Below are positions 11,370 through 47,300 of a stretch of 64,000 nucleotides of DNA, piece after piece. Below the pieces are notes generated by a model. The model was not told where the DNA came from. It ran no database searches and saw only the letters and a list, made by a program, of their open reading frames with translations. Every line of letters starts with the position of its first letter. Position 1 is the first letter of the stretch. The stretch is from Cognatishimia activa (GTDB lineage: Bacteria > Pseudomonadota > Alphaproteobacteria > Rhodobacterales > Rhodobacteraceae): contig NZ_CP096147.1 in NCBI RefSeq assembly GCF_026016445.1, positions 2,454,501 through 2,518,500 on the forward strand. The letters are read 5' to 3'. The position numbers were made by a program, and so were the translations under genes.

Positions 11370-11379
11370 GATGGGCTCC

Positions 11380-29854: not shown

Positions 29855-29945
29855 AACTCCCCGCTGTTAATTACCGATAAGGCTGCTCCCATATCTTGGG
29901 AACACAATCACCAACCAAACTCTTTAAATGGAGGCCACCCTGGGA

Positions 29946-32900
29946 ATGACGTTTCGTTCGGCCAAAGATCGACCGGTTCACCTTGGACGCCTCAAACTAG
30001 AAACTCTGAAGCGTCGGACTGAGACTGATCTGTCGGAGGTGCCAGAGTTCGAGCCACTGCGCTTTCACCAGCCAGATGTTCCCGCGTCCATCGTGAATGC
30101 AATGGGGGATCATCAGGCGATGCTGGATGCGATCCGGGATGGTTTGGTGAACAAAGCCGTCGCAGATGCGCCATCGGAACCACAAGAACGGGCAGACCAC
30201 CTAAAGGCCTTTGGCTATTTTGCAGACGCGACAATTGTTGGCACTTGCGCTCTGCCAGCAGCCGCGGTCTTGCCAGAACCTGTGTACAACCCCGATATTG
30301 ATCGCTTAGCCGAAGATCTGCGCACCAAACAGGTTAAAACCTTCGCCTCTGGTGTCGATATGATCATGGCGGATCTCAAGGAATCCATGGACGCTCCGCC
30401 CACGTCGATCAACAGCCACACCCATGCGATTGTTTTTCTTTACGCGCATCCACGTGATCCGCGTGAAGATGAAGTAGGCACCACCTGGATCCAAGGTGCA
30501 GCCGCGCATCGGTCTGCCATTTTGGCATCAGAAACTGCAGTGGTCATCGCGAACTACCTGCGCCTCCTGGGCCATGAGGCGCGCGGCCACACCCTATCTT
30601 GCAGTGATGTTGATCTGGGCCGCGTTGCCGTGGCCGCGGGTGTAGCGAAGGTGGAAAACGGTGTCTTGTTAGCACCTTACGTCGGCGAAGGCTTCAGCTT
30701 AGCTGTGGTTACAACCAATTTTGAGATCGCGGCTGATCTGCCACTTGCAGAGCTGCCTTCTTTGCAGGAACCAATCTTTGCGACGCGTGACTTCAAAGAC
30801 GGGGCGCATCCCTTTGAGAAGCTGAAACGCGTAGATAACCCGACAACTTACATCGATGAAGCGCGTATCCCACGGGTGCCAAAACGGACCGATATGTTTA
30901 GCCGTGCTCTTTTCGGGGACATGGGGAAACACGTTCAAGACGCCTCCAAAGGCGGGCACTACGTGCGCAAGTCCGCCCCCTCGATGGCACAACGTCGGGC
31001 ACTTGGCGCCTTTACGTTGTTGCAGGACGGAGAAACTGCGACAGAGCAGGTGAAGCTAAACCCGCAAGAGGCTCATGATCTAATCAAAGCGACCAGCTAT
31101 TATCTGGGCATCGATGCGGTCGGTATATCCCGATGTCCGGATTGGTCCTGGTATTCCCATGACGCTGCAGGTCAGCCGATCGATCCGCCTCATGATCAAG
31201 CCATCAGCATGATTGTGGATCAGGGCTATGACACGATGGAGGGGTCATCAGGCGATGACTGGATTGCGGTCGCAATGTCGATGCGGGCCTACCTTCGGTT
31301 TTCCCTATTGGGGGGTGTGATTGCGCGCCAGCTGCGTAATCTTGGATACAAAGCCAAGGCACATACGGTGATGGATGGTGAGGTGTTGCAACCTCCGCTT
31401 TTGTTGCTCTCGGGCATGGGTGAAGTCAGCCGCATTGGTGAGGTCATTCTAAACCCCTATCTGGGGCCGCGCCTGAAATCGGGTGTGGTGACAACCGACC
31501 TGCCGATGACTCATGACAAGCCCATTGATTTTGGCCTGCAAAAGTTCTGTGAGGCTTGTAAGAAATGCGCGCGGGAGTGTCCGTCTGGCGCGATTACAGC
31601 AGGGCCGAAGCTGATGTTCAACGGCTATGAGATTTGGAAATCTGATAGCCAGAAATGCACCACTTACCGGATCACAACACCGGGCGGCGCGATGTGCGGG
31701 CGCTGCATGAAGACATGTCCTTGGAACCTTGAAGGCATTTTGGCTGACAGCGCCTTTCGCTGGGCGGCGATGAAAATCCCGGGCACAGCCCCTGCCTTGG
31801 CAAAACTAGATGATATGTTGGATCGCGGCTCGCTGAACTCTGTCAAGAAATGGTGGTGGGATTTAGAGATCCAGGAAGATGGAGGCTATCGCCCAACCGA
31901 CAAGCCCATAAATGCGCGGACGCTGCAGAAGGATCTTAATCTGCAATACGAAGATCAAACTTTGGCGGTTTATCCCGCCAACCTTGCCCCACCGCCCTAC
32001 GCCTATCCGCACCCAATGGATCGCGAAGCGGGCATCGAAGCCTATCAGGCGATGATCACGGCAGAGGAATACAAAAAGCGCATCGCTCATGGAGACAACA
32101 GCGGTGCCCATATGCGGCCTGACTTCTCAGATAGTCCAGTGCTGCAGGTCAAGATCACTGAAGCCGCCAAACAAGCCGAGGGTATCACCAAGTACGTGAT
32201 GCAAAGCCTTGATGGCAGCGACCTGCCAGTATGGACCGCCGGGGCACATCTGGACATCGTGGTCGCGCCAGAATTTTTGCGTCAATATTCCATGTGCGGT
32301 GATCCAGCCGATCGCTCGACCTATCAGATTGGTGTCTTGCGCGAAGACGCGGGTCGCGGCGGGTCTGCGCTGTTGCACCGCATATTTAATGAAGGTCGCA
32401 AGATATTTGTCTCCAAACCGATCAACCACTTCCCACTGCAGGAAGAAGGCGCAAAGTCTTATCTGATGGGCGGTGGCATCGGCATCACGCCAATGATCGC
32501 AATGGCGCATCGGTTGCACGCGTTGGGCAAGGATTTTGAGCTGCATTATTCGGGCCGCTCGCGCCAGACCATGGGGTTCTTGGACGACCTGGCGACTTTC
32601 CCCTGGGCGGACAGAGTGCGGCTGCATATTTCTTCAGAAGGCACACGTGCAAAGCTGGATGAGATCCTCACATTTTCTGAAGGGGCTCATGTTTATACCT
32701 GCGGCGCAGAGCCTTATATGCAGGCCATTTTGGACTGCGCCGAACAAGGCGGATTTCCCGAAGAAAACCGCCATCTGGAATATTTTAGCGTGCCCGAAGC
32801 GCCAGACTATGAGAACCACCCGTTTCAGATCAAACTGGCAAAATCCGGTCAGCTTCTGGATGTACCGGCAGACAAAACTGCGGCTGATATTCTGGTGGAA

Positions 32901-33083
32901 AACGGAATTCATATCGACATCAAATGCGCAGATGGAATTTGCGGAGTTTGCAAGTGTGGGCTCGTCACTGGTGAGGTGGAACACCGAGACTACGTTCTAT
33001 CCAGAAGCCAGCAGAAAACTGCAATCATAACCTGCCAATCAAGGGCGGCGGAGCCTAATGGCGTAATCGAACTTGATCTATAA
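29946..33083 (+). CDS. Self-sufficient (catabolic) reductive dehalogenase fused to flavin/2Fe-2S reductase
   Basis: 1045 residues from the ATG at 29946; an in-frame ATG at 29928 is less likely because GGAGG lies between the two. Residues to ~500 form a cobalamin-binding region. Two 4Fe-4S motifs follow: C535/538/541/545 (FCEACKKCARECP) and C571 with C584/587/591 (CGRCMKTCPW). From ~700 a phthalate-dioxygenase-reductase-like module has RQYS (R779, flavin) and GGGIGITP (842-849, NAD(P)H), ending in a plant-type 2Fe-2S ferredoxin (C994, C999, C1002, C1030). There is no Tat signal and no RdhB anchor gene, so it is cytoplasmic. The layout matches BhbA and NpRdhA, oxygen-tolerant enzymes removing bromine or chlorine from hydroxybenzoates. 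The substrate here is unproven. Confidence 0.9.
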   Translation: MTFRSAKDRPVHLGRLKLETLKRRTETDLSEVPEFEPLRFHQPDVPASIVNAMGDHQAMLDAIRDGLVNKAVADAPSEPQERADHLKAFGYFADATIVGTCALPAAAVLPEPVYNPDIDRLAEDLRTKQVKTFASGVDMIMADLKESMDAPPTSINSHTHAIVFLYAHPRDPREDEVGTTWIQGAAAHRSAILASETAVVIANYLRLLGHEARGHTLSCSDVDLGRVAVAAGVAKVENGVLLAPYVGEGFSLAVVTTNFEIAADLPLAELPSLQEPIFATRDFKDGAHPFEKLKRVDNPTTYIDEARIPRVPKRTDMFSRALFGDMGKHVQDASKGGHYVRKSAPSMAQRRALGAFTLLQDGETATEQVKLNPQEAHDLIKATSYYLGIDAVGISRCPDWSWYSHDAAGQPIDPPHDQAISMIVDQGYDTMEGSSGDDWIAVAMSMRAYLRFSLLGGVIARQLRNLGYKAKAHTVMDGEVLQPPLLLLSGMGEVSRIGEVILNPYLGPRLKSGVVTTDLPMTHDKPIDFGLQKFCEACKKCARECPSGAITAGPKLMFNGYEIWKSDSQKCTTYRITTPGGAMCGRCMKTCPWNLEGILADSAFRWAAMKIPGTAPALAKLDDMLDRGSLNSVKKWWWDLEIQEDGGYRPTDKPINARTLQKDLNLQYEDQTLAVYPANLAPPPYAYPHPMDREAGIEAYQAMITAEEYKKRIAHGDNSGAHMRPDFSDSPVLQVKITEAAKQAEGITKYVMQSLDGSDLPVWTAGAHLDIVVAPEFLRQYSMCGDPADRSTYQIGVLREDAGRGGSALLHRIFNEGRKIFVSKPINHFPLQEEGAKSYLMGGGIGITPMIAMAHRLHALGKDFELHYSGRSRQTMGFLDDLATFPWADRVRLHISSEGTRAKLDEILTFSEGAHVYTCGAEPYMQAILDCAEQGGFPEENRHLEYFSVPEAPDYENHPFQIKLAKSGQLLDVPADKTAADILVENGIHIDIKCADGICGVCKCGLVTGEVEHRDYVLSRSQQKTAIITCQSRAAEPNGVIELDL

Positions 33084-33173: not shown

Positions 33174-34436
33174 TCAGGATTCAGATTTTGGAAAAATGAG
33201 AATTGCCCTAAAGTCATTCACATTTGTCAGCGTCGGCCCACAGATGATTTGCCCACCCAATTTCGAAAAGAAGCTATGTGCATCGTTGTTCCCAAGAGAG
33301 GCTTCGGCGATGGCATAGTGCTCCTCTGATTGCAGGGTCTCGGGCCCAAAATAAGCTCCTGCTACTTCTGCTGCCCCATCCACGCCATCAGTGTCACAAG
33401 CGATCAAATGAATGCCGTCAGCCTCTGTCAGAGCCAGACCTGCAGCCAAAGCATACTCTGCGTTCGGCCCGCCTATTCCATTGCCGATACGCGTGACCGT
33501 ACACTCACCTCCAGACAACAACAGATGCGGTGCTGATCCCGCAGTCATTTGAGATTGTACTTTGAGTGCAAGCTCTGCGTGACTTCGGCCTAGATCCCGC
33601 GCCTCTCCTTCCAGCGCATCACCCAACAGTGTCACCTCACAGCCTTGGGATTTTGCGAGATCGGCAGCGGCGGCCAAAGACTGCGACGGGGCCGCGACTA
33701 TAACGGAGGTGCCCGCAGTCGCTTTGCCAGACAACTTCTCCTGCGGAGCTGACAATAGCCTGATGACCTTTTCATCGACAGGAATTTCATGCCGATCAAT
33801 CACCGCCAACGCCTCTTCATTGGTTGAAGAGCCAGGTACCGTAGGACCAGATGCGATTTCGGCAGGATCATCGCCGGGTACATCTGATATTATCAAACTC
33901 AGCAATTGAGCGGGTGAACATGCTGTAGCCAAACGCCCGCCCTTTACCTTGGAAAGCCGCGCACGGACTGTATTCATCTCGCTAATGGGGGCTCCTGACG
34001 CCAATAAGGCGGCATTAACAGCTTGCTTATCTGACAGGGTTAACCCTTCGATAGGCGAGCAAAGCAGGGCTGATCCGCCACCAGAAATTAAAGCCAGCAC
34101 AGTGTCTTCGGGCTGCAATTCTGAGACCAGATCTAGCATTCGAGCCGTAGCATCCACACCCGATTGATCCGGAACAGGGTGCGCCGCTTCAACAATTTCG
34201 ATACCTTTGCAGGGCCTCGCGTAGCCGTAGCGAGTGATGACCAGCCCTTCGCACGGTCCATATACGCTCTCGACAGCTTCAGCCATGCGTGCGCTCGCCT
34301 TCCCCGCACCAATGACAAGCAAACGACCCTTCGGGCGTGGCGGCAAATGTTTGGGAATGACCTGCATCGGATCCGCGGTTTTAACCGCAAGTTCAAAGAG
34401 CTCAGAGAGGAAGCGTTCAGGTTGATCAATTCGCAT
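33174..34436 (-). CDS. gckA: Glycerate 2-kinase (GckA/MOFRL family)
   Basis: 420 residues from the ATG at 34436 (a GTG at 34496 would add 20 residues). The N-terminal DUF4147 Rossmann-like domain has LLVIGAGKASARMAEAVE and the nucleotide-binding ALISGGGSALLCSPI; the C-terminal MOFRL domain has LLSGGECTVTRIGNGIGGPNAEYAL and LIACDTDGVDGAAEVAG. The enzyme phosphorylates D-glycerate to 2-phosphoglycerate, which enters lower glycolysis. It is the last gene of the LacI-controlled operon, 90 bp after the isomerase gene. Glycerate is one of the two expected products of the hydrolase encoded two genes upstream. It converges on the dehalogenase gene. Confidence 0.88.
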   Translation of the reverse strand: MRIDQPERFLSELFELAVKTADPMQVIPKHLPPRPKGRLLVIGAGKASARMAEAVESVYGPCEGLVITRYGYARPCKGIEIVEAAHPVPDQSGVDATARMLDLVSELQPEDTVLALISGGGSALLCSPIEGLTLSDKQAVNAALLASGAPISEMNTVRARLSKVKGGRLATACSPAQLLSLIISDVPGDDPAEIASGPTVPGSSTNEEALAVIDRHEIPVDEKVIRLLSAPQEKLSGKATAGTSVIVAAPSQSLAAAADLAKSQGCEVTLLGDALEGEARDLGRSHAELALKVQSQMTAGSAPHLLLSGGECTVTRIGNGIGGPNAEYALAAGLALTEADGIHLIACDTDGVDGAAEVAGAYFGPETLQSEEHYAIAEASLGNNDAHSFFSKLGGQIICGPTLTNVNDFRAILIFPKSES

Positions 34437-34526
34437 TTGCGTCGCCAGTTCAACTTGTGATGGGCATAATTCCAAGAGGCAATCCAAATGGATCACCCTT
34501 CAGACGCTACGGTTTTAACGCAGTCG

Positions 34527-35219
34527 TTAGTCTGCACCAAGCCAGGATCTGTAGTCGCTAACGAGTAGATGGGTTGGCGCCTCATCCTCTACGATGTCAG
34601 CAAATCGCCCGATCGGTTCACGGAACACATTGTCGGTTTCATCGTCATTGACGGTCGAAACCTCACCAATCAAAACATCCCCGCCTTCGCCCCAGAAGGC
34701 GTGCCAATCGCCAGGCTGCAGGGTGATGCTCTCACCGGGAGCCAGCTTGATCTTTTCGCCGGCCGAATAGTCGCGACGTATCCCGTCACACCAAACAGTG
34801 CCGCCCTCGTCACCTGCAAAGTTCCCCTGATCATCGGAACCGAAGAGTTCGATGACCAAAGTTGCCCCACCGCGGTTGATAATATCTTCTGCTTTGATCA
34901 CATGGGTATGCATCGGTGACAATTGATCCTGACGCGAGATCAACAGTTTCTCCGCGTAACACATGCCACCACCGCGTTGCAGATCAGCAAGGCGCCCATT
35001 GCGCAACGTGAACAGAAACAGACCCATCTCGTCAAATCGCCCGTCACCGTAGTCGGTGATATCCCAACCACAACGCGCCTCAACCAGATGCTGCGCATCT
35101 CCAGTGCGTGCCTTGAACTCTTCCGGGGTCCAATAGGCAAAAGGCGGCAAGGTGAAGCCATAATGGCGGATCATCTCATCGGCTTCAGCCATAATTTGAT
35201 TGATGCGGGAACGCTTCAT
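34527..35219 (-). CDS. D-lyxose/D-mannose ketol-isomerase (cupin type)
   Basis: 230 residues from the ATG at 35219, which overlaps the hydrolase stop by 4 bases, with GGAGAGG upstream. It is a cupin-fold sugar isomerase of the D-lyxose isomerase (YdaE) family. Likely metal ligands are visible: H104 and H106 in SPMHTHVIK, E111 or the Glu a few residues on, and H173 in PGDWHAFW. Characterised relatives convert lyxose to xylulose and also mannose to fructose. In an operon with a mannosylglycerate-type hydrolase, the mannose-to-fructose reaction is the better fit. If the natural substrate is glucosylglycerate the role is less obvious. Confidence 0.85.
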   Translation of the reverse strand: MKRSRINQIMAEADEMIRHYGFTLPPFAYWTPEEFKARTGDAQHLVEARCGWDITDYGDGRFDEMGLFLFTLRNGRLADLQRGGGMCYAEKLLISRQDQLSPMHTHVIKAEDIINRGGATLVIELFGSDDQGNFAGDEGGTVWCDGIRRDYSAGEKIKLAPGESITLQPGDWHAFWGEGGDVLIGEVSTVNDDETDNVFREPIGRFADIVEDEAPTHLLVSDYRSWLGAD

Positions 35220-36493
35220 GCGACCTCTCCGGTAAGTTTTAAAAACTCGATCACCATAGCCGCGGTCCAAGTAAAGTGAAGACCCCCACATGGTTCACCG
35301 GTCATCGGATCAAAGTATTCGGCGAAACCGCCGGTTTCGATCAGCTTGACGCTATCACTGATGATGCGGGCCGCGGTGTCATGATGACCTTCCCGCTTTA
35401 GACCGTCAGAAATCATATAGTTCACGATCAGCCAAGCCGGACCACGCCAGTAACGAGCGCCGTCATAGTTTTCGTCATCGGGATGATGGCTAGGCACCAG
35501 ATACTTCACGCGCTTCCCTAGCTCGTCGATGTGCCGTGCGATGGCTGTGGAATGTTCCTTATCGATGTGGGCAAAAACCGGCAGAAGACCACCAATAGAT
35601 GGGCTGTCGATCACATCACCTATCACACGATCATAGCACAGATACTGCTGCCTCTTCTCGCTCCAAAGGTCGTTGAGTGCTCGAAGTCCCTTATCTGATC
35701 GGGTTCGTTCTTTTGCTGCCAGTTCGGTTTCGCCCAAACTCTCCGCCATAGCAGCAAGATCTTGGCTAGACCGCAGTAGGATCGCGTTAAAGCCTGGATC
35801 AACAACCTGAAACGGGGAAGCATCGTGCAGTTTGGTGTAGTCCCAGTTTAGGCCACGGAAGAGTTGAACAAGCCAAATGTACCTTTTGTACTGCTCTTGC
35901 GTTGGACGATGCGCTGGATTGGTGTGATTTAGATCACGGCGCTGAAACTCACCAACCCCCTCGGTTGGAACACGTTCAAAAGCCGCATCCCAGTCAACAG
36001 AGTTATCTCGGCCAGACTCCCAAGGGTGCAAAATCGCGACCAAACCAGTATTTTCAGGGTCACGTGCCTTGTAGAACCAATCATGCCAAGCAGCAATCTT
36101 AGGCAAAAGCGCGGCGGCGCGACGGCGCGCCATTTCCGTGTCTTTGGCCCTTTCGAGCAACCGACGTACAGCAAAACCAGCGACCGGAGGCTGGGTGATA
36201 CCCGTGGTTGGAACCGGTCGATTGGTTTGCCAGACCTCTGGGCCTGGATAGTAGCCGTCATCATCTTTGTGGAAGATGATATGGGGTACCATTCCATCAT
36301 CCCATTGATGCGCAAACAGCGTTTCGATTTCCGTCCATGCCCTTGATTCATCTACGTAATACTGGCCAAGAGAAGACAGGGCGCTATCCCAATTCCACTG
36401 AAAAGGGTAAAGCCCATGCGTTGGCACTGTGTAGTGCCCTTGGTCGTTACGCGCGAGGATCTCGACGGCTTGGTTGAAAATATTGGTACTCAT
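35216..36493 (-). CDS. GH63-family hydrolase, mannosylglycerate/glucosylglycerate hydrolase-like
   Basis: 425 residues from the ATG at 36493. It is an (alpha/alpha)6-barrel enzyme of the MGH1-like GH63 group, whose characterised short members hydrolyse mannosylglycerate or glucosylglycerate. Hallmarks are QWNWDSALSS near the N-terminus, WESGRDNS with presumed acid D163, YWRGPAWLIVNYM, and GFAEYFDPMTGEPCGG with presumed base E392. No signal peptide is seen, so the disaccharide must be imported first, consistent with the ABC transporter genes in the same operon. Products would be a hexose and D-glycerate, matching the isomerase and glycerate kinase genes downstream. Trehalase-like or glucosidase activity is the main alternative. 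Confidence 0.85.
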   Translation of the reverse strand: MSTNIFNQAVEILARNDQGHYTVPTHGLYPFQWNWDSALSSLGQYYVDESRAWTEIETLFAHQWDDGMVPHIIFHKDDDGYYPGPEVWQTNRPVPTTGITQPPVAGFAVRRLLERAKDTEMARRRAAALLPKIAAWHDWFYKARDPENTGLVAILHPWESGRDNSVDWDAAFERVPTEGVGEFQRRDLNHTNPAHRPTQEQYKRYIWLVQLFRGLNWDYTKLHDASPFQVVDPGFNAILLRSSQDLAAMAESLGETELAAKERTRSDKGLRALNDLWSEKRQQYLCYDRVIGDVIDSPSIGGLLPVFAHIDKEHSTAIARHIDELGKRVKYLVPSHHPDDENYDGARYWRGPAWLIVNYMISDGLKREGHHDTAARIISDSVKLIETGGFAEYFDPMTGEPCGGLHFTWTAAMVIEFLKLTGEVA

Positions 36494-36509
36494 GGTTCTA
36501 CCTGATGGG

Positions 36510-37553
36510 TTACGCGACAGCGAGGTTGGTTTGCGTGTCGAACCAGCGGATGCGGTCCGGCTGAGGAGCAAGGTTCAACATGTCGCCAGATTTAAGCTTC
36601 AGATCGCTTTCCAATATCGCACGGAACATAGTGCCATTGACGTCACAGGTGACAAGCAAATGGGCACCAAGGGGTTCAACCAAACGAACTTTGGCCGGCA
36701 GGCCATTTTCAGATGGCACGATATCCTCAGGGCGAATAGCGAATTCTATAGGGCCATTTCCGCCTGATGGACCAGAGTAGGTTTGACCAGCGACTTGCCA
36801 GTTTCCACCATCGGCCTCGGTTGCAGGCAGGAAGTTCATCGGCGGGTTACCGATAAAGCCAGCTACAAAACGTTCGGCAGGATTGCGATAAACCTCAACC
36901 GGAGTGGCGGCTTGAACGATGCGCCCCTCGTGCATGACCGAAATCCGGTCCGCGAGACTCATCGCCTCGACCTGATCGTGGGTCACGTAGATCGCTGTCG
37001 TATTGCTTTCTGCCAGAACGCCTTTCAGTTCTGCGCGCATTTCAAGACGCAGAAGCGCGTCCAAGTTGGAAAGCGGTTCATCCATCAGGATAACATCTGG
37101 CTCCATCGCAAGCGCGCGAGCCACCGCCACACGTTGGCGCTGACCACCTGAAAGCTCACCAGAGTAGCGCCCAAGCAGTTGATCGATGTGCATCAGACCC
37201 GCTGTCCGTTCGACGCGCTTTTTGACTTCAGCATCCGGCAATTTCTGCATACGCAGGCCAAAGCCGATGTTTTCAAACACGGTGAGGTGCGGGAAAACGG
37301 CATAGTTTTGGAATACCATCGCGATGCCGCGATCCTTAGGCGCAAGGTGGTCAACCCGGCGCCCGCCGATCCAGACTTCGCCTTCTGTCGCCGTCTCCAG
37401 GCCACAGATAATGCGCAGAAGCGTGGACTTGCCGCAACCCGAGGCTCCGAGCAGGACCATGAATTCCTGATCCGAAATGTTGAGGTTGATGTCGCGCAGC
37501 GCCTGATACTCTCCGAAGCGTTTGGCGACGTTCTTGATCTGAATCTCAGCCAT
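36510..37553 (-). CDS. Sugar ABC transporter ATP-binding protein (MalK/UgpC family)
   Basis: 347 residues. Walker A GASGCGKST, Q-loop VFQNYAVFPHLTV, signature LSGGQRQRVAVA and Walker B VILMDEPLSNLD form the ABC domain; residues ~240-347 are the OB-fold TOBE regulatory domain (FAIRPEDI, GAHLLVTCDVNG). This architecture is that of CUT1 carbohydrate importers. AAGGAG precedes the ATG. It lies between the permease genes and the hydrolase gene. Confidence 0.92.
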   Translation of the reverse strand: MAEIQIKNVAKRFGEYQALRDINLNISDQEFMVLLGASGCGKSTLLRIICGLETATEGEVWIGGRRVDHLAPKDRGIAMVFQNYAVFPHLTVFENIGFGLRMQKLPDAEVKKRVERTAGLMHIDQLLGRYSGELSGGQRQRVAVARALAMEPDVILMDEPLSNLDALLRLEMRAELKGVLAESNTTAIYVTHDQVEAMSLADRISVMHEGRIVQAATPVEVYRNPAERFVAGFIGNPPMNFLPATEADGGNWQVAGQTYSGPSGGNGPIEFAIRPEDIVPSENGLPAKVRLVEPLGAHLLVTCDVNGTMFRAILESDLKLKSGDMLNLAPQPDRIRWFDTQTNLAVA

Positions 37554-37580
37554 TGTTTGGCTCCTTAAACTTGCAACCGC

Positions 37581-38420
37581 TTAGCGGTTGGCGATGCCCC
37601 ACATCGCAAAGAGGTATTTGCGCACAGCGAAGATGAAGATCAGCGCTGGCACGACGAGGATGAACCCACCGGCGAACTTCAAGTGAAGCGGTGATGTGTC
37701 GAGGTTTTGCAGAAGGAACGCGGTCAGCGTCCGGTTTTCGATGGTCAAAACCGCAGCTGCAAACACCTCGTTCCAGGAAATCACGAATGCGAAAATCGCC
37801 GATGCTGTGATACCTGGAAGGATCAGAGGCAGGATCACCTTGGTGAAGGCGGTCAATCGTGTGCAGCCCAAAGTCCAAGCCGCTTCTTCCAGTTCCATTG
37901 GAATACCCGAAAAGAGCGAGAACGTGATCAGAACCGCGAACGGTATGGCCAGCGTTGTGTGAACCAGCGCCAATCCAAAAATCGTATCGTCAATCCCTGC
38001 GCGAATGAACATGACTGCCAGTGGCAGCGCCAGAAGCGGCAGTGGGAAGGCACGGGTCAGCAGGATCAGCAACCGGAACAGCTCTTTACCTGGGAAATCA
38101 AACCGAGAAAGAGCGTAACCCGCAGGTGCCCCGATAGAGATCGACATAACCATGGTCAGTGCCGCGACCAGAATCGAGTTTTTCAGCGCCGTCAGAATAC
38201 CCGCAAAGTTGGCAAAGAAAGTTAGACTGCCGAGATCAAACTCAGGAACGAACGATTTCGGGAATGCGTTCACCGCCTCCGGTGAGCTGAGCGTATTGAT
38301 CAACAGGAAGTAGATCGGGACGAGCACCCAAGCGCAGAGCATGGCCACGGCAGCGCCGTAGACAAAGCGGCCCGCTCTACGAGTATCCGCCGGAGCGGCT
38401 GCAACAGTTGCATCACTCAT
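37581..38420 (-). CDS. Sugar ABC transporter permease (MalG type)
   Basis: 279 residues with about six membrane segments and the EAA loop MELEEAAWTLGCTRLTAFTK facing the ATPase. It starts with ATGA overlapping the stop of the first permease gene, so both halves of the membrane complex are co-translated. The N-terminal cytoplasmic lead is Ala-rich. It belongs to the CUT1 importer of the mannosylglycerate-type operon. Confidence 0.92.
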   Translation of the reverse strand: MSDATVAAAPADTRRAGRFVYGAAVAMLCAWVLVPIYFLLINTLSSPEAVNAFPKSFVPEFDLGSLTFFANFAGILTALKNSILVAALTMVMSISIGAPAGYALSRFDFPGKELFRLLILLTRAFPLPLLALPLAVMFIRAGIDDTIFGLALVHTTLAIPFAVLITFSLFSGIPMELEEAAWTLGCTRLTAFTKVILPLILPGITASAIFAFVISWNEVFAAAVLTIENRTLTAFLLQNLDTSPLHLKFAGGFILVVPALIFIFAVRKYLFAMWGIANR

Positions 38421-39262
38421 ATCGAAGCTCCTTTCGGTACGCGCAGTGCACGCAGGATCACAAGTGTCGAAGCGATTGAGATCGCAAGGATGATCAGGGC
38501 AATCGCGGCCGCTGCTCCACCATTCAGCAGTTCAAACTGGTAGGTGTAGACCTCGCCCATCAGGACTGGGAACAACGTGCCCCCCAGCGCCGAAACAACA
38601 GCGAATATTTCAAAGGCCAAGATGACTCGCAGCACCAGCGCGGTTTGCAGAGATGGACGCAGAAGCGGTAGCGTGACCTTCAGGAACCGCTTCCATGGCG
38701 AGGCACCAAAGACTTCAGCAGCTTCGTAATATTCCTTGGGGATCAGGCCGATGCCAGCCACCAGGATCACCAGCATGATCGCGGTTGCACGCCAGATTTC
38801 TGCTCGGGCAATCGCTAGGAAGACGACACCCGGAGTTTGGTAAGACAGAAGGTTAAACGGCTTGTCCGTTGCCCCAACTGCGTTCAGCATGGAGTTCAGG
38901 AAACCTGACTGGTCAAAGATCGCCAACCAGATGATCCCTGCGGCTAGGTCCGAAATGCCCAACGGAATGGTCCAGATGTAAAGGACAATGTCACGCCCTT
39001 TTTTCATCTTGTTGACCATCGTGGCCATCAACAGAGCCAGCGCGAGCTGTACGGGGACAACGGCGGCAGCCAAAATCAGAGTGTTTTGCAGCGAAATTGG
39101 GAACTTCCAGTGACTACTTACGTCTCGGAAATTATCCAGAGTGAAACCTGCTCCGGTGCTGAAGGCTTGCTGTGCGACCAGTACAAACGGGTACAGGAAG
39201 AACAAGCATAGAAACAGCGTAACCGGGAGGATCAGCAAATACGGTAGGAACCGTGCGTTCAT
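38417..39262 (-). CDS. Sugar ABC transporter permease (MalF type)
   Basis: 281 residues, about six membrane segments, with the EAA-type loop YEAAEVFGASPWKRFLKVTL. No long MalF periplasmic loop is present, as usual for CUT1 permeases outside enterobacteria. CCGGAG precedes the ATG. Two hairpins separate it from the binding-protein gene upstream, which would favour higher expression of the binding protein. Confidence 0.92.
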   Translation of the reverse strand: MNARFLPYLLILPVTLFLCLFFLYPFVLVAQQAFSTGAGFTLDNFRDVSSHWKFPISLQNTLILAAAVVPVQLALALLMATMVNKMKKGRDIVLYIWTIPLGISDLAAGIIWLAIFDQSGFLNSMLNAVGATDKPFNLLSYQTPGVVFLAIARAEIWRATAIMLVILVAGIGLIPKEYYEAAEVFGASPWKRFLKVTLPLLRPSLQTALVLRVILAFEIFAVVSALGGTLFPVLMGEVYTYQFELLNGGAAAAIALIILAISIASTLVILRALRVPKGASI

Positions 39263-39307
39263 GGGATCGCTCCGGGGTTTTGGTCAAATTTGGTGTTTGG
39301 TTCGGGT

Positions 39308-39355
39308 GTCCGGGCCATTCAAGGCCCGGACAGGGTTGCAGGTAGAAAACCTGCA
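39308..39355 (-). terminator. Two tandem hairpins between binding-protein and permease genes
   Basis: TGCAGGT/ACCTGCA (39337-39355, 5-base loop) and GTCCGGGCC/GGCCCGGAC (39308-39331, 6-base loop, 9 perfect pairs) follow each other after the binding-protein stop. Such intercistronic stems usually protect the upstream mRNA or partly terminate, giving excess binding protein over permease. No T-run follows. Confidence 0.55.
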
Positions 39356-39366
39356 GTGGGAGAGCA

Positions 39367-40629
39367 TTACTCTACCGGGCAGGCTCCTTCGGATGGGGCA
39401 TCTGGTGCCCAGCAAGGTGCGCCTGTTTCGTTCATGATCTTCGCAAGAGTTTTCTTCTGATCATCCAGAACCGCACGGATTGGCTGACCGGCCAGAACGA
39501 TACGCTCAAAGCTGTCTACGAAGACACGGTTGAAGTCACCGCCTTTGTCACCAAGACCTGCTGGCAACAGACCAGGGTTGGCATCCGCAGAAGCACTCAT
39601 GATAGCAACCGCATTCCCTGCAGCTTGAACTGATGGAGGCAGGTCACCAGGCAGTTCAACATCTACAACCGGGAAGAAGTTGGTCGCGCGAAGGGTTGCG
39701 ATCTGAGTTTCAGGCTTAAGCATATGCGCAACAATCGCCTTTGCCGCATCCATGTCAGGAGCTGTACGTGGAATTGCAACGCCAGCGATCACAGGCATGA
39801 AGCCCCGGCCTGTTGGACCAGCTGGTGCTGGGAATGCCACGAAATCATCTGGGCGTTCATTGAATGCTGCCGCCAGACGAGATGTGTGGTCAAATGCAAT
39901 CCAAACATCTTCAGAGAGCAATTGCTCCTGCAAGAATGAGAAGTTGGTTGAAGCCGGGTTGGTCACAGCCCAGAGTTCGCGCATCTTTTCCCAAGCCGTT
40001 ACAGCTTCGTCAGAGGCAAATGTGCGCACAACACCGTCGGTGTAGGACGGGTAGAGATATCCTTGGAAGAAGCGATGCTTCAGACCCTTTGGCCCGGCTG
40101 GAAAACCAAATTTAGCTTCGCCAGTCGCCTCTTTGACGTTTGTAGACCACTCAATCAGTTGGTCATAAGTCAATGCGTTGATATCCGCGCCCGCTGGCAA
40201 ATGCTCCAACGCTTTTTTGTTGGCGGCCATGATGTAGCTCGCCTGCATCCAAGGAATGTATTGCGTGTCTGATGTGCCAAGCTTCGCCAGTTCGTTGAAA
40301 GTCGCACTTGCAGCGCCCAGGCCCAGATCGCCCAGATCGAGAAGATCATCTGGGTTCATCGCCGAAAAATCGCCGTGCAATGCGCCAAGGACACCGATGG
40401 AACCGGAGCCTGCTTGAAGCTCAGCGTTCAGACGGGTCAGCCAAGGGCCACCATCGTTTGGTTGATAGTCAACGTCCTGTCCGCCCAGAACTTGTTCACG
40501 CATCGCCTGTGCTTCTTCGACAGGTTTGGCCTGTGTAGACCAAAACAATACGTCTGCTTGTGCGATGGTGGCAGAGACCAGAATGGCCACGCCTGAAGCT
40601 GCACTTGCCAATTTGGCTTGGAATTTCAT
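39367..40629 (-). CDS. Extracellular sugar-binding protein of CUT1 ABC transporter
   Basis: 420 residues with a Sec signal peptide cut near TIAQA-D (residue ~25). The mature protein has the periplasmic-binding-protein fold of family 1, with PVIAGVAIPRTAPDMDAAK as a typical second-lobe stretch and several Trp residues (FWSTQAK, GPWLTRL, IPWMQAS) that could stack on sugar rings. GGGAGG precedes the ATG. It is the first gene of the seven-gene LacI-controlled operon and should determine its ligand, predicted to be mannosylglycerate or glucosylglycerate from the enzymes encoded downstream. Confidence 0.9.
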   Translation of the reverse strand: MKFQAKLASAASGVAILVSATIAQADVLFWSTQAKPVEEAQAMREQVLGGQDVDYQPNDGGPWLTRLNAELQAGSGSIGVLGALHGDFSAMNPDDLLDLGDLGLGAASATFNELAKLGTSDTQYIPWMQASYIMAANKKALEHLPAGADINALTYDQLIEWSTNVKEATGEAKFGFPAGPKGLKHRFFQGYLYPSYTDGVVRTFASDEAVTAWEKMRELWAVTNPASTNFSFLQEQLLSEDVWIAFDHTSRLAAAFNERPDDFVAFPAPAGPTGRGFMPVIAGVAIPRTAPDMDAAKAIVAHMLKPETQIATLRATNFFPVVDVELPGDLPPSVQAAGNAVAIMSASADANPGLLPAGLGDKGGDFNRVFVDSFERIVLAGQPIRAVLDDQKKTLAKIMNETGAPCWAPDAPSEGACPVE

Positions 40630-40772
40630 GATTTCCTCCCAATTGAATCACGAAGCTCTCTTCTTATTGAGGCTTCCGTTTGTAGTTGCGATCCACTCCT
40701 CCCCTGGAGCACGACACCGAATTCCACTGCTACTGAAGGCAATTAGGAATCGGCGCTGATCTGCCAATAGCA

Positions 40773-40897
40773 TGGTATAACGTTATACCAATCGTCAATG
40801 ATTTTTATGTGGTTTTGTGAATACGGTCGAAAATACAATCAATACCTCCTTGTAACTATAGGGTATCAGGGGGTAAAACTGCCAAAACGTTAAACCA
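40773..40897. promoter_or_regulatory. LacI-type operators between the transporter operon and its regulator
   Basis: TGGTATAACGTTATACCA (40773-40790) is a perfect 18-bp palindrome with a central CG, the classic LacI-family operator form. A second site at 40880-40897 (TGCCAAAACGTTAAACCA) matches it at 14 of 18 positions and lies just before the regulator ATG. The first would control the transporter operon (ATG at 40629) and the second would allow autoregulation or looping. Confidence 0.7.
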
Positions 40898-40909
40898 AAA
40901 CTGGAAAGA

Positions 40910-41938
40910 ATGGCCCGAAAACCGAAATTAGAAACGGTCGCAAAGGAAGCAGGCGTATCAGTCGCGACAGCGAGCCAAGTGATACGCGGCACCGGTCGAA
41001 TTTCGGAAAAAACGCGCAAAAAGGTACTCGAAGCAGCCCAAAAGCTACACTACGTGCCAGACTCTCGGGCAGCATCAATGCGCTCAGGTGACAATCGCGA
41101 AATTGGATTTACGATTCATCAGATCGCCAACCCGTTTAATGCTGAAGTCATCAGTGGTGTCAGTGATCTGCTAGAAAACGAAGGCTATCTGGTATCCGTC
41201 TTGGACTCGCAAGATGACCCGGAGCGCCAGAGGCGTCAATTGGAAGCATTCATCCGAAGCTCTCGTGGTGGGCTATTGTGGGTTCCAGCACATGATACTC
41301 CTCAAAGCAGCATCGATTTGCTGCGCAACCACCAGATGCCGACCGTTACCTTTTTGCGACGAGAGGGCACATCTGATTTCGATCACGTGGGTATCCTGAA
41401 CACGGAAGCGACAAAGACCGCCACGACCTATCTGGCGGACCTTGGGCATCACAACATCGCGTTTTTGGGCGGTAAAGCGGACGTAGACGTCAGGAACCAG
41501 CGTATCGCCGGCTACAAGTCCGTCATTGCTGAACGAAATCTCGGCCCTGAAATTATCTGGGATTCCGCAGACGACAAATTGGCGGGGCTAAACGCGATGA
41601 TGGATTTGCGGCTCGCACATCCTGAAGTCACCGCGATTGTGTGCAACGGCGATCAAATTGCGCTTGGCGCTTGTCTGGCTCTTGCGCGAAATGGTGAAGA
41701 ACCTGGGAAAGACGTTTCGATTGTCGGTTTCGATGACATTCAAGATGCCGCCGCCGCCACGCCTCCCCTAACTACGATGGCGACCTCGCCGTATCAGCTC
41801 GGCAGACGGCTGGCACGTGCGCTGCTGGAACGCATCCGAAATCCGGATTCTCCTATCGCGATATCTGAGATTTCAGCAAAACTCGTCGAACGCGAGACAA
41901 CTGGTGCAAGATCAGAACGAGTGAAAAAGCCACGATAG
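40910..41938 (+). CDS. LacI-family transcriptional regulator
   Basis: 342 residues. The N-terminal HTH is ETVAKEAGVSVATASQVIRG followed by the hinge (KKVLEAAQKLHYVPDSRAASMRS; core LHYVPDSRAA), then a sugar-binding periplasmic-like domain with IGFTIHQIANPFNAEVISGV and DVSIVGFDDIQDA. One unusual point is SQVIRG in place of the common SRVLNG/SRALSG. It diverges from the transporter operon with a perfect operator between them, so it is the likely repressor, relieved by the imported glycoside or a breakdown product. Confidence 0.93.
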   Translation: MARKPKLETVAKEAGVSVATASQVIRGTGRISEKTRKKVLEAAQKLHYVPDSRAASMRSGDNREIGFTIHQIANPFNAEVISGVSDLLENEGYLVSVLDSQDDPERQRRQLEAFIRSSRGGLLWVPAHDTPQSSIDLLRNHQMPTVTFLRREGTSDFDHVGILNTEATKTATTYLADLGHHNIAFLGGKADVDVRNQRIAGYKSVIAERNLGPEIIWDSADDKLAGLNAMMDLRLAHPEVTAIVCNGDQIALGACLALARNGEEPGKDVSIVGFDDIQDAAAATPPLTTMATSPYQLGRRLARALLERIRNPDSPIAISEISAKLVERETTGARSERVKKPR

Positions 41939-41956: not shown

Positions 41957-44059
41957 TTAGCTACAGGCGGCCATCAACTTAGTCAGGTGTTTCCTGTAAT
42001 GCTCCCACTTGGCGACTGAGCTTGTGTAGATTGGCTCGCGAACCTGCGTGATACTGGCTGTGCGCACACGACGCTTAGATTTATGAGAGTGCAAGCAAGC
42101 CTCTTCCCAGTCCAAACCACAATATGTCAGCAAAGCCTTCACCTGCGTTTCTTGGTCGGACACCAACTCTTCATATTGAAGTGTGTGAAACGCATCTGAA
42201 GGCAGCATCGCTTCCCAATGTAGCATAAGGCGCTCATAACCTTTGAAATAGCGGCCCATTTCAACCTGATCGTAGCTGTGAAACTGGCTGCGCTCAAAAA
42301 GACGCGTGAAGCCAGAGAAGCAGCTGTCCATGCCACTGCGTTTGACATGCACAATCTTAGCGTTGGGCAGAAGCGCATGGATCAGACCAATCAGATCGAA
42401 GTTGGAAGGCATTTTATCGGTGACGAAAGCAGCACCATCCGAAATGTCAGTCAGAATTGCTAGATAGCGATCAACCAGTGCGCGGATTTTATCACCTGCG
42501 ATCCGAGCAAAGGCATTCGGGAATTCTGCGCGGGTTGTCTCATCGAGCTGTTCAAACAAATTGCGCAAATCATTCAGCTCGCCCGCCCCATAAACCTTCG
42601 AGTGGCTCGCGAGAATGGTTTCGGTCAATGTGGTGCCGGAGCGCGGCATGCCGAGTACAAAGATCGGTGTGGCAGAGGGGTTGGCAAAGGCGCGCAGTTG
42701 ATCGATGAAATCAAGAGTGAAGGTTTGAATAATCGCATCCACCTGAGCGTCGCGCGCATCCGCATCGTATTGGATGGTCGACCGTTTCAAAGCAGCCCCG
42801 CGTTCATATTGTTCCCACGCCTTATCGTAATTGCCCAAAGCGTCGTAACAATCAGCCAAGCCAAAGCGGAACGAAATCTGCTTTGAGATAGGCATGTTGT
42901 TCACCTGTGACAGCTCCTGCTCCAAGGCCATAAAAACCGGGTCCGTTGGAGATTTAGGCTTTAAAACACGGCTCAGAGCCACGAGGGCGGACGTATCAGA
43001 AGGTTGTAGCTGCAATGCTGCCTCAAAGGTTTCCATCGCTTTTGTTTTGTCACCCATCTCCAGATAGATGTGCCCCTTCCCCATCAGGCTGGGCGCGAAA
43101 GTTGGATCCTGCGCAAGTGCCTCATCATAGTGGCGCAGAACCGAGTCACTATCGGCTAGACCACTTTTGACCAAACCCAACTGGTGAAGACAGCTGGCAT
43201 TTTGAGGCTCAAGCTCAAAAGCTCGCTCTGCCGCATTGAGAGCAAGTTCAGGATGGTTCTTTTCCAGATAGACCTGTGATAGCCCAATATGGGCGGATGT
43301 CTGTTTTGGATCAGACACCAACGCGCGGCGGAACAACCGCTCTGCTGCATCCAGTTCCAAACGCATTAAAAAGATACGACCCTGATTGCGCAGCGCCTCG
43401 GCATTATTCGGATCTTTGGCCTGAATGTGAGAAATTTCCAAAAGCGCCTCATCCAGGCGATCCAAATCAATCAGCACGGTAGACAGGTTATTGCGGCTTT
43501 CATGGTGATCGGGGTGGATGGCCAGCACTTGGCGATAATACTCAATCGCAGCATCGATCTCCTTTTCATCCCGCGCGATGGACCCAAGATTGTTCAGAGA
43601 CGCGATGTGTTTGGGATCAAGAGACAGGGCTTTTTGATGAAGCGCTTTTGCTTTCTCAATCTCACCGAGGTCGTAATAAGCCAAAGCGAGGTTCGCAAAT
43701 ATCGGCGCTGATTTGGCCCCACCGGCAACGGCGCGCTCGCCGTATGATACCGCCTCAGGAAGACGATCGGCAGAACGGAAAACCTCGACCATATTTGACA
43801 GCAGCATCAGATTCTTTGGATCAATCGCAAGCGCCGACTGAAGACGCTCGGTAGCCGTTTGCAGATCCCCCTTTTGATAAGCGGCCAACCCGATCAGCTG
43901 TTGCGCCATCGCATTTTTTGCCTCTGCCTGCAGCACGCGATCACACAGATATATACAAGCGTCCAACTCACCCTTTTGGAAGTTGTTCAAAGCCATTTGA
44001 ATGGCTTGGGCAACGCTTAAAGTTTGAACGGTTTCTTGCGAGTTTGAGGCCGTGGTCAT
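41957..44059 (-). CDS. TPR-repeat sulfotransferase
   Basis: 700 residues from the ATG at 44059, with AAAGGA upstream; an ATG at 44128 would add 23 residues. Residues ~10-430 are a run of about eleven tetratricopeptide repeats (for example LNNLGSIARDEKEIDAAIEYYRQ truncated as NNLGSIARDEKEIDAAIEYY). The C-terminal third is a sulfotransferase domain: PAPS-binding loop GMPRSGTTLTE (M471-T477 region) and the 3'-phosphate region HVKRSGMDSCFSGF. It would transfer sulfate from PAPS to an unknown acceptor, perhaps a glycan, lipid or protein bound by the TPR scaffold. No signal peptide. It is convergent with the LacI gene and unlinked to obvious pathway genes. Confidence 0.88.
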   Translation of the reverse strand: MTTASNSQETVQTLSVAQAIQMALNNFQKGELDACIYLCDRVLQAEAKNAMAQQLIGLAAYQKGDLQTATERLQSALAIDPKNLMLLSNMVEVFRSADRLPEAVSYGERAVAGGAKSAPIFANLALAYYDLGEIEKAKALHQKALSLDPKHIASLNNLGSIARDEKEIDAAIEYYRQVLAIHPDHHESRNNLSTVLIDLDRLDEALLEISHIQAKDPNNAEALRNQGRIFLMRLELDAAERLFRRALVSDPKQTSAHIGLSQVYLEKNHPELALNAAERAFELEPQNASCLHQLGLVKSGLADSDSVLRHYDEALAQDPTFAPSLMGKGHIYLEMGDKTKAMETFEAALQLQPSDTSALVALSRVLKPKSPTDPVFMALEQELSQVNNMPISKQISFRFGLADCYDALGNYDKAWEQYERGAALKRSTIQYDADARDAQVDAIIQTFTLDFIDQLRAFANPSATPIFVLGMPRSGTTLTETILASHSKVYGAGELNDLRNLFEQLDETTRAEFPNAFARIAGDKIRALVDRYLAILTDISDGAAFVTDKMPSNFDLIGLIHALLPNAKIVHVKRSGMDSCFSGFTRLFERSQFHSYDQVEMGRYFKGYERLMLHWEAMLPSDAFHTLQYEELVSDQETQVKALLTYCGLDWEEACLHSHKSKRRVRTASITQVREPIYTSSVAKWEHYRKHLTKLMAACS

Positions 44060-44302
44060 CTGTATCAGTCCTTTGTTCCCCTCTGCTTTATCTAACCAGA
44101 AATCGACCGGCAATCGCGTGCTCGTCAAAAAGCGCGCAGGCTACCGCTTAAGCCTCAAATCGACATAAACTTTGGTTATAAACCTGTTTTTTAAGGGTTT
44201 TCCGAAGCGCGATCCCCATTAAGGGAATTTCAAGGAATACGGCGCGCACCTCAAGCCTAGAGGTCGCCACATCATTGCGATGAGAATATTGGGGACAAAA
44301 AT

Positions 44303-47300
44303 ATGAGCAACGCAGGCAGACAAACGATCGCCTCACAGGCAGGCGGACGCATGATCAAATGGAAGGGGCGTGTCGCGAGCTTGGCACCCTCTTTGCTGTT
44401 GGGAACTGTCTCTGTCACTGCACTAGTTGTGGCAGGCGCACAGGCAGAAACGGTCAACACTGCCCAGGCAACCGCGCTGGTCAGCGCCGTGGATGAGGAT
44501 CACACAATCACCCAGGATGGGTCGATCACTTTGAACCCAATGACCGACCGCGCACTCGTTGAAATCAATGTCACGCAGTATAATCAAACGCTCAGCAACC
44601 AAGGCGCCTTGAGCGGCACAAATGCAAACAATCGCACCCACGTTGGCATGGGCGTGAATGGGTTGCTCGCCGGGACAGTATCAAACAGCGGATCGGTCAC
44701 TTTGTCTTCGACAGGTGTCACCTCAGCAGACCACCGCGGCATCGACCTGAGCGACATTCAGGGGACGGTCACAAACTCCGGATCTGTTGACGTCATTGTT
44801 GATGGATCCACTTGGGTTCAAGCGACGGGTATCTACGGTGGAGCCACCTCTGGAACAGTGAGCAACTCTGGTGACATCAGCATTCTCGCGGACGGCAGCT
44901 CTGCCAGAGCTTACGGCATCAATTTGCGCGCAACATCAGGAACCGTGGACAATTCTGGGACGATTTCCGTAACTGCAAATGGGACGGGATCCTCAGCAAC
45001 GGCTTACGGCGTGCGCATGGTCGGTCTTTCAGGGACGTTTCGAAACAGCGGTACCATTGACGTGGTGGCCAACGCGGGCAGTGAAGGTTCAGCCTACGGA
45101 ATTACCGCCTATGACGTGAGCGGTAACCTCGAAAACACAGGTACCGCAACGGTGGCCGCAACTGGTAACACCAATCCGGTTGCCCTTGGCATTGATTACG
45201 GTGATCTGGCGGCGACCGGCAGTATTACCAACGCAGGCACCATCGATGTTCAGGCGACAGGGACAAACGTGAGCACCGCCACTGCAGAGGGTATCTCTGG
45301 TTTGGCTCTTGATGGCACGCTTACAAACAGCGGTACGATCCGAGTATTGGCTGCAGCGAATTCAGCGTCCAGCGTGGATGCCATTGGGATCTACAACCAC
45401 AACATTTCTGGTACTTTGACCAATAGTGGCACTCTGGAAGTTCAGGCTCTTGGATTAAGCGCGAGTAACGTCAGTGCAGTCGGTATCGAGGGCCGCACTA
45501 TGTCTGGCACTGTAAGTAACTCAGGCTCTATCCTAGTTAATGCTGTTGGCGGTAGCTGGGCCAGCGCAGAAGGCCTCTCTATGGATTCCATCACCGGGGA
45601 CCTGACAAACACAGGAAATATCGTGGCCCTGGCTGAGGGCACAAGCTCGGCTTATGCAGGTGGGATTTATTCGCGCACAGTTTCAGGGGATGTGAACAAC
45701 TCAGGCACTATTGTTGCTGCTGCACTCGCTTCAAGCTACGCATATGCAACAGGTCTTTACGCCAGCATGCTAAATACTGGCGGGACACTGCAAAACAGCG
45801 GGACAGTTCTGGTTATAGCTGCGGCAGGTTCAAGCAGCGCGGCAGCAACTGGGATGGGCAGCGGGTTCGCTCGCGGTACCATGTCAAACAGCGGGACCTT
45901 GCAAGTTGGCGCGATCGGAGACGGTGTGGCCTACTCAGAGGGTATGAGCGCTTTCTTCACTGACACCGACACCGAGGTTCGAAATTCAGGCCTGCTGCAA
46001 GTCGGAGCCCTTTCTCTGAATTCTTCGGCCACTGCTGTTGGCATCCAGTCCGTACGCATGGCAGGCACACTTGAGAATTCCGGGACCATTGAAGTCATTG
46101 CTGGGGGCACTTCAGCACGGGCCTATGGGGTCAATCTCGGCTCCATGGAGGGTGGACCATTCCTGTCGGTCACCGGACAGGTCAATAACACTGGCACAAT
46201 TTCGGTCCTCGCAGCCGGTTCGTCTGAAGCTGTCGCCTATGGCATTCGCGCAGGCGCTGTTGAGGGAACAATCACCAACTCCGGCGATATTAATGTAGCA
46301 GCCTTTGCTGCAAATGGTGGCCTTGTAACTGGTCTAGACTTCAGCAGCGTCGCCTCAACGGGCACAGTGACAAACTCCGGCGATATCACGGTCTTGGCGG
46401 ATTACACCAATGCAACCCGCTACTACGCGGCGGGCATTGGTGGCGGCCAGATGGACGGCACGATGATCAATACCGGAAACATCGTAGTGACATCGACCAC
46501 GGTCGCGCCCGGCGTTGCTGATGCCGCTTTCATCACTGGGATCGCGGCCTTTGACATAGCAGGGACGCTGACGCATGACGGCACAATCGACCTGACAAAT
46601 GCAGGCGGCGCGGGCAGCCAAGCTTACGGTATCTTCGCCAATAATTTAACAGGCACGCTGAATGTGAACGGTGACATCGCAGCGCGTGGAGCCGACTCCA
46701 ATTACGCTATTTACGCAGGCGGCGGGGCTGGCACGCTGAACATCAATACCAGCGCGACTGTGGACGGAATGATCCGCGTTGAGGACCACAATGTAAACCT
46801 GACCCATTCCGGCGGCGCACGCGTTTATCAGTTCGAAGACGCCAACACTGCGGGCGGCGCGTTTGCGACCAATGTTACCATCGACAACGGCGTCTGGTTT
46901 GTTTCCGATGCCGGCGGCTCTGCACCTGTCTACGCATCCGCCATTGGTGAAGACTTTGCGGTTAACACACTCCTCCCTTTCCAGATGGGCGCTTTGGCGG
47001 ATGGTCTGTCCTTCGAACTTGCGCAGTCACCAACAAATGTTGTGAGCCGCAATTCGATGGAAGATGCCAGTGGAACAGCCATTGAAACCTTCGCACGCAT
47101 CAGCCTTAGCACCGCGGACGGCTCTAGCATGGCAGGTGCAGAGCAGTCTGACCTTGGCACGCTTACCGCGGGCTTGAAGGCTTCAGTTGGGGACACGCAC
47201 TACGGGCTTGGCCTGTCTATGGCATCGGGCAACTCATCGCAGGCGACAAACGCCACTGAAACAGATGGTGCCTTCCTGAGTGCTGAAGTCGCTCACGACT

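Follow-up and report, generated by a model that had tools for sequence, protein, structure and literature searches.

The window analyzed here, a stretch of 64,000 nucleotides of the Roseobacter-type bacterium Cognatishimia activa (contig NZ_CP096147.1), includes at positions 33174-41938 eight genes that code for a LacI regulator, four importer components, a hydrolase, an isomerase and a kinase. We consider, with a probability of about two in three, that they form an operon under LacI control for the catabolism of 2-O-alpha-D-mannosyl-D-glycerate (digeneaside). An earlier note based on the letters of the DNA had placed these genes and named their families, and Pfam searches agreed with it for all eight. 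Seven of them lie on the minus strand, from 40629 down to 33174, in the order binding protein, two permeases, ATPase, hydrolase of glycoside hydrolase family 63 (GH63), lyxose isomerase and glycerate kinase, with spacings of 104, -4, 27, 16, -4 and 90 bp. The regulator gene is divergent.

In the proposed route, unmodified mannosylglycerate would reach the cytoplasm through the binding protein and the ATP-binding cassette (ABC) importer, and the GH63 enzyme would split it into mannose and D-glycerate, with inversion as in its relatives. The lyxose/mannose isomerase would convert mannose to fructose, to be phosphorylated by a fructokinase encoded elsewhere, and the MOFRL kinase would convert D-glycerate to 2-phosphoglycerate. 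The regulator probably holds both promoters repressed at one operator until an inducer arrives. Glucosylglycerate may be a second substrate.

The hydrolase and its active site

The hydrolase gene (35216..36493, minus strand) was read from the ATG at 36493, which was preferred over a longer open reading frame (ORF) starting with TTG, and codes for 425 amino acids. Residues 29-410 match the whole MGH1-like profile PF22422 (1-356 of 356) with 371 bits (cut-off 27), compared with 36.6 bits for Trehalase and 26.6 bits for the C-terminal domain Glyco_hydro_63. Ranked by score, its solved relatives are Thermus thermophilus MgH (392 bits; 46% identity, 45.7% or 186/407 positions), the chains of Mycolicibacterium hassiacum MhGgH (225-233 bits; 32% identity, 133/415) and YgjK (28 bits). 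Domain scores and solved relatives together rule out a trehalase or an oligosaccharide glucosidase, and the enzyme goes with Thermus MgH as the type proposed earlier would have it. The accompanying tree had 45 rows (30 random close relatives, 12 distant ones, the window's protein and two references) and included no trehalase; the exact placement of Thermus MgH in it is unsure because its branch and that of the other reference are both long and join each other. Stop codons counted inside the hydrolases of genomes G046 and G253 do not interrupt these genes: the one in L096 is the ordinary end of the gene and the alignment of L094 has none.

The predicted acid D163 and base E392 align with Asp182 and Glu419 of MhGgH. 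Passages of PMC6608630 list the residues shared by MhGgH and all characterised MgH enzymes as Tyr36, Trp40, Trp42, Asp43, Tyr88, Gln115, Gly180, Arg216, Tyr222, Tyr375, Trp376, Asp182 and Glu419. All of them are identical in the window's hydrolase, in 97/97 close relatives and in 12/12 distant relatives, which belong to the second hydrolase group described below; the genome sets behind these rows overlap in part, and the rows do not count as independent observations. The direct glycerate contacts, which the earlier note had named as a point to check, are therefore retained: Tyr36, Trp40, Tyr88, Arg216 and Tyr375 correspond to Y29, W33, Y81, R196 and Y348. A direct sugar contact of MhGgH, Gln434, is replaced by Phe407, and Phe also occupies this position in Thermus MgH and all 109 relatives. 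This substitution may affect the sugar specificity. The PDB chain 6g3n, which is MhGgH-like by alignment, likewise has Phe there. Fold and family by themselves leave the sugar undecided because MhGgH cleaves both glycosyl-glycerates.

Isomerase, kinase and the nature of the sugar

Linkage of the hydrolase gene to others was followed in 80 named loci, the best matches among those listed, to which all counts out of 80 refer. The isomerase encoded in the window (34527..35219, minus strand; 230 amino acids) matches PF07385 (Lyx_isomer) with 339 bits and the solved D-lyxose isomerase 3kmh/3mpb with 187 bits. Its residues H104, H106, E111 and H173, which we take to be the likely metal ligands, align with the His/His/Glu/His positions of 3kmh. 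A lyxose isomerase gene is present in 27 of the 80 loci and follows the hydrolase gene directly in 26 of these 27. In the remaining one, L032, a single gene (11263-11967), PIG-L-like by eye, separates the two. Loci L075 and L078 lack a lyxose isomerase and have instead, directly after the hydrolase, an AGE-family protein (PF07221) whose best NCBIfam model is a D-mannose isomerase (211 and 233 bits, cut-off 600); no other AGE-family protein was found when all 80 loci were searched at E ≤1e-8. That these two loci have an unrelated enzyme with the same predicted activity in the isomerase's place is good evidence for mannose as the product, and the gene linkage favours mannosylglycerate over glucosylglycerate as the predicted substrate.

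The glycerate 2-kinase (420 amino acids; 33174..34436, minus strand) has both the DUF4147 (PF13660, 278 bits) and MOFRL (PF05161, 97 bits) domains and scores 261 bits against the putative glycerate kinase 2b8n. Both ATG 34436 and GTG 34496 are possible starts. It is the only PF13660 match in the genome, a statement that covers this family of glycerate kinases only. The earlier note assigned a dedicated enzyme to each of the two products. Both enzymes are indeed encoded in this operon, but the kinase is an occasional operon member.

For the rest of the pathway, the genome was searched for related enzymes. It has no match to type I phosphomannose isomerase (type II enzymes were not searched) with either of two models, which among 14 control genomes matched in 2 and 7; this result fits a mannose route through fructose. 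PfkB kinases occupy six places in the genome, of which five were scanned (E ≤1e-25); one, far from the operon, has fructokinase as its best model (125.8 bits, cut-off 450) and is a weak candidate for this activity. Two ROK kinases were also matched. In locus L069, the isomerase is followed by a PfkB kinase that scores best against a fructokinase model (140 bits, cut-off 450). A kinase 50% identical to this protein is found in L060 at about position 3433, beyond the LacI gene. The PF09488 synthase is without a match in the genome (other synthase families were not searched), which fits an outside source of the solute and speaks against the recycling of the cell's own mannosylglycerate, an option that was rejected on this ground.

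The importer

All four importer parts are present: an extracellular solute-binding protein (420 amino acids; 39367..40629; PF01547, SBP_bac_1, 71 bits), permeases of 281 (38417..39262) and 279 amino acids (37581..38420) with PF00528 (BPD_transp_1) scores of 67 and 61 bits, and a MalK/UgpC-type ATPase (347 amino acids; 36510..37553), all on the minus strand. The ATPase has PF00005 (ABC_tran, 121 bits) and TOBE domains (PF08402, TOBE_2, 38 bits) and scores 405 bits against the UgpC model (cut-off 432). We take this to be an ABC sugar importer of the class labelled CUT1. The binding protein is 62-89% identical to 32 relatives picked from the 75 named loci that have this gene.

The operator and its regulator

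The LacI-family regulator (342 amino acids; 40910..41938, plus strand; PF00356 58 bits, PF13377 98 bits) is transcribed away from the operon. Between them, at 40774-40789, lies the sequence GGTATAACGTTATACC, a perfect 16-bp palindrome to which no strand is assigned. The ATG of LacI is 120 bp away from it and that of the binding protein 144 bp. The palindrome is the single site with three or fewer mismatches in the 3.21 Mb genome; as a control, the pattern read backwards gave 11 forward and 11 reverse matches. Under the same limit it is also the sole site in the window (mean of the shuffles, 0.10).

A LacI orthologue of more than 50% identity is encoded in 47/80 loci, always in divergent orientation (47/47); a different LacI was seen in 27 loci and none in 6. 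The consensus GRTATAWCGWTATAYC, set down after the sites had been viewed, is present exactly in 36 of the 46 examinable loci with the orthologous divergent regulator, with one mismatch in 5 and with two in the other 5. The best match in the shuffles, generated by a crude two-base block shuffle, had 3 mismatches and was reached by 4/920. Among 29 loci with a different or undetected LacI, 28 have five or more mismatches and one has a single mismatch. This exception, L042, has no detected LacI, and its record starts 245 bp before the binding-protein match. Since the site is near-exact with the orthologous regulator and mostly differs by five or more mismatches otherwise, it travels with the regulator. 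The genome scan, the window scan and the conservation compared with shuffles rule out a chance palindrome, and the perfect operator described in the earlier note was thus confirmed. Promoter-like and terminator-like sites were no more frequent than in shuffles and were therefore of no use as evidence.

Distribution of the gene set

The four importer genes and the downstream hydrolase gene are kept together in 75 of the 80 loci. The exceptions are L045 and L065, which end at a contig edge; L039, without a detected binding protein and one permease; L002, with only distant importer genes, placed downstream; and L030, where none were found. The hosts include Ruegeria, Phaeobacter, Mesorhizobium, Devosia and Granulosicoccus. 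Conservation in other Roseobacters had been put forward as a check; the operon core recurs there and beyond. The idea of a marine route for osmolyte use was too narrow, since with Mesorhizobium and Devosia among the hosts the system is not only marine. Comparable cores are found in many relatives from the sea and from soil. Downstream genes in other relatives (SWIM, peptidase, Usp, pilus ATPases, FAD oxidoreductase and others) gave no hint of a pathway.

A sample of 292 genomes of the order contained a hydrolase relative (E ≤1e-60) in 94: 18 at 61% identity or more, the group of the window's enzyme, and 76 at 39-49%, a second and commoner group (76/292 versus 18/292). PF07385 was found in 163/292 genomes, distributed as 18/18 of the first group, 61/76 of the second and 84/198 of those without a relative. 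Compared with the latter, the Fisher p values, uncorrected for relatedness, were 6e-7 and 2e-8 for the first and second groups, respectively. Isomerase and hydrolase genes are adjacent in 11/18 genomes of the first group and apart in 6/18; for G291 the position is not listed. The single genome of the same genus in the sample has neither hydrolase nor isomerase.

The 12 members of the second group included in the tree form one clade. Beside the hydrolase, all 17 fetched loci of this group (L119-L135) have two permease-like genes and one ATPase-like gene, 27-46% identical to those of the window, and 15 of the 17 have a visible LacI-like gene. A binding protein resembling that of the window was not detected in these 17 loci. 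Of the 17, 5 also have a lyxose isomerase, having been chosen for it.

Some relatives carry additional genes around the hydrolase. In Devosia, L041 (7257-11260) and L047 (8039-11263) have a tandem pair of hydrolase paralogues, with a related importer upstream. The first paralogue of the pair lacks the Gly of ESGRDNS, and a small ORF, SGNH-esterase-like by eye, lies between the two. Such paralogues possibly represent two sugar specificities under one importer. In G256, two second-group copies are found on one contig with an ATPase gene between them. A gene that by eye resembles PIG-L deacetylases is near the hydrolase in L032, L047, L067, L033 and L080, directly after it in the first three.

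Alternative substrates

Several observations weigh against mannosylglycerate as the substrate. Passages of PMC6608630 report that MhGgH, a member of the same family, favours glucosylglycerate almost tenfold over mannosylglycerate, and the NCBIfam model nearest to the window's hydrolase is that of glucosylglycerate hydrolase (NF047898; 353.9 bits, below the cut-off of 550). The water-mediated contact Phe89 of MhGgH is Tyr82 in the window, and Tyr occupies this place in 3/97 close relatives. The isomerase falls short of the NCBIfam D-lyxose/D-mannose isomerase model NF051472 (235.9 bits, cut-off 350), its family is common in genomes without the hydrolase, as the 84 mentioned above illustrate, and within the stretch examined the lyxose isomerase is missing from 53/80 loci and both isomerases from 51/80; in 2/80 loci less than 700 bp lie beyond the hydrolase. 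The kinase is below the cut-offs of the glycerate 2-kinase models NF041176/NF040791 (203 of 550 and 168 of 670 bits) and is found in 8/80 loci. The binding protein matches PDB entries weakly (best E 0.0004), and mannosylglycerate as its ligand is a prediction. As an alternative, the main substrate could be glucosylglycerate, for example from picocyanobacteria, cleaved to glucose and glycerate, with the mannose isomerase serving another source of mannose or a minor side substrate. Besides the preference of MhGgH, the NCBIfam match and the 53 loci, the available text of PMC11631117 describes glucosylglycerate as one of the two major compatible solutes of Prochlorococcus NATL2A. However, the hydrolase is nearer to Thermus MgH than to MhGgH and has the Phe at the Gln434 position, with its presumed effect on specificity; a mannose isomerase would be superfluous in a glucosylglycerate operon, two unrelated families of it follow the hydrolase, and the lyxose isomerase is present in all 18 genomes of the hydrolase clade. 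We therefore regard glucosylglycerate as the main substrate as unlikely.

It is more doubtful still that the operon serves both glycosyl-glycerates alike, with enzymes rather than the importer determining which sugar is used and with tandem hydrolases covering both in some relatives. The Devosia paralogues, the two copies in G256 and the activity of MhGgH on both solutes, as given in passages of PMC6608630, agree with this possibility, but the window has a single hydrolase and a single isomerase dedicated to mannose. Least probable is an unrelated alpha-mannoside or alpha-glucoside, such as a manno-disaccharide or an acylated glycoside, for which the family resemblance would be misleading. The binding protein has no informative solved relative, and the SGNH-esterase-like and PIG-L-like genes near some hydrolases may indicate ester or amide groups; against this, none of the five residues in direct contact with glycerate varies, a glycerate kinase is present in the window and in the 8 loci, and glucosylglycerol and glucosylglycolate are not cleaved by MhGgH according to passages of PMC6608630. 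The substrate that we favour remains mannosylglycerate.

Neighboring genes

The end of the kinase gene is 90 bp away from a convergent reductive-dehalogenase gene, an ORF of 1051 amino acids (29928-33083) in which the dehalogenase (513 bits to 6zxu; also 4ras) is fused to a module similar to phthalate dioxygenase reductase (188 bits to 2pia). Homologues of the bhbA-type reductive dehalogenase are widespread among Roseobacters, according to the available portion of PMC13101508. On the other side, 41957-44128 codes for a TPR protein whose C-terminal part is a sulfotransferase domain (PF13469, 155 bits), and 44303-47866 is a repeat-rich ORF of 1187 amino acids, autotransporter-like by eye.

Significance and comparison with known systems

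Each of the operon enzymes is already of a known kind. To our knowledge, the marine consumers of these solutes are little known, and the gene set could serve as a marker for osmolyte turnover. A broader proposal, to which we give even odds, is that mannosylglycerate is used by a non-phosphorylating pathway that is both widespread and undescribed, with import by an ABC system, cleavage by a GH63 enzyme, and conversion of mannose to fructose and of glycerate to 2-phosphoglycerate. This pathway would be spread across the Alphaproteobacteria and some of the Gammaproteobacteria, would have been put together on at least two occasions, with different importers and with isomerases from two unrelated families, and would turn these bacteria into a major sink for digeneaside from red algae and for related solutes.

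The earlier note knew of no description of this exact operon. A literature search of titles, abstract starts and passages, with most subscription papers outside its scope, likewise recognised no account of an ABC/GH63/isomerase operon. The main text of the LacI regulon survey PMC4052901 contains none of the terms glycerate, lyxose, GH63 and trehalase, and a search of terms in the main text of the Ruegeria transporter paper PMC10130141 gave no match. The breakdown of digeneaside as such, however, was already proposed for marine Flavobacteriia such as Zobellia, as stated in parts of PMC6298971 and PMC8072126. That proposal, compared here without its gene list, also concerns marine heterotrophs and the same substrate, but another phylum.

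One counterpart is the mngR-mngA-mngB system of E. coli, which takes up mannosylglycerate by the phosphotransferase system (PTS), phosphorylating it, and relies on a GH38 mannosidase. Substrate and purpose would be alike; the window differs by its ABC import and by a GH63 enzyme predicted to act on the free solute. Thermus thermophilus MgH (PDB 2z07, 4wva-4wvc) shares with the window's hydrolase the fold family, the catalytic acid and base, the listed contacts and the Phe at the Gln434 position. It differs in its surroundings: the window's enzyme, at 46% identity, has a dedicated importer and an isomerase encoded beside it, and the PF09488 synthase family that was matched in the Thermus control genome is without a match in this one. 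MhGgH, which passages of PMC6608630 connect with the recovery of the mycobacterium from nitrogen starvation, has the same catalytic residues and direct glycerate contacts, and the window's enzyme departs from it in its 32% identity and in the Phe that replaces Gln434. The GH13_18 glucosylglycerate phosphorylase, as described in portions of PMC11009771 and PMC10608839, also takes a glycosyl-glycerate to glycerate, but it does so by phosphorolysis and belongs to another enzyme family.

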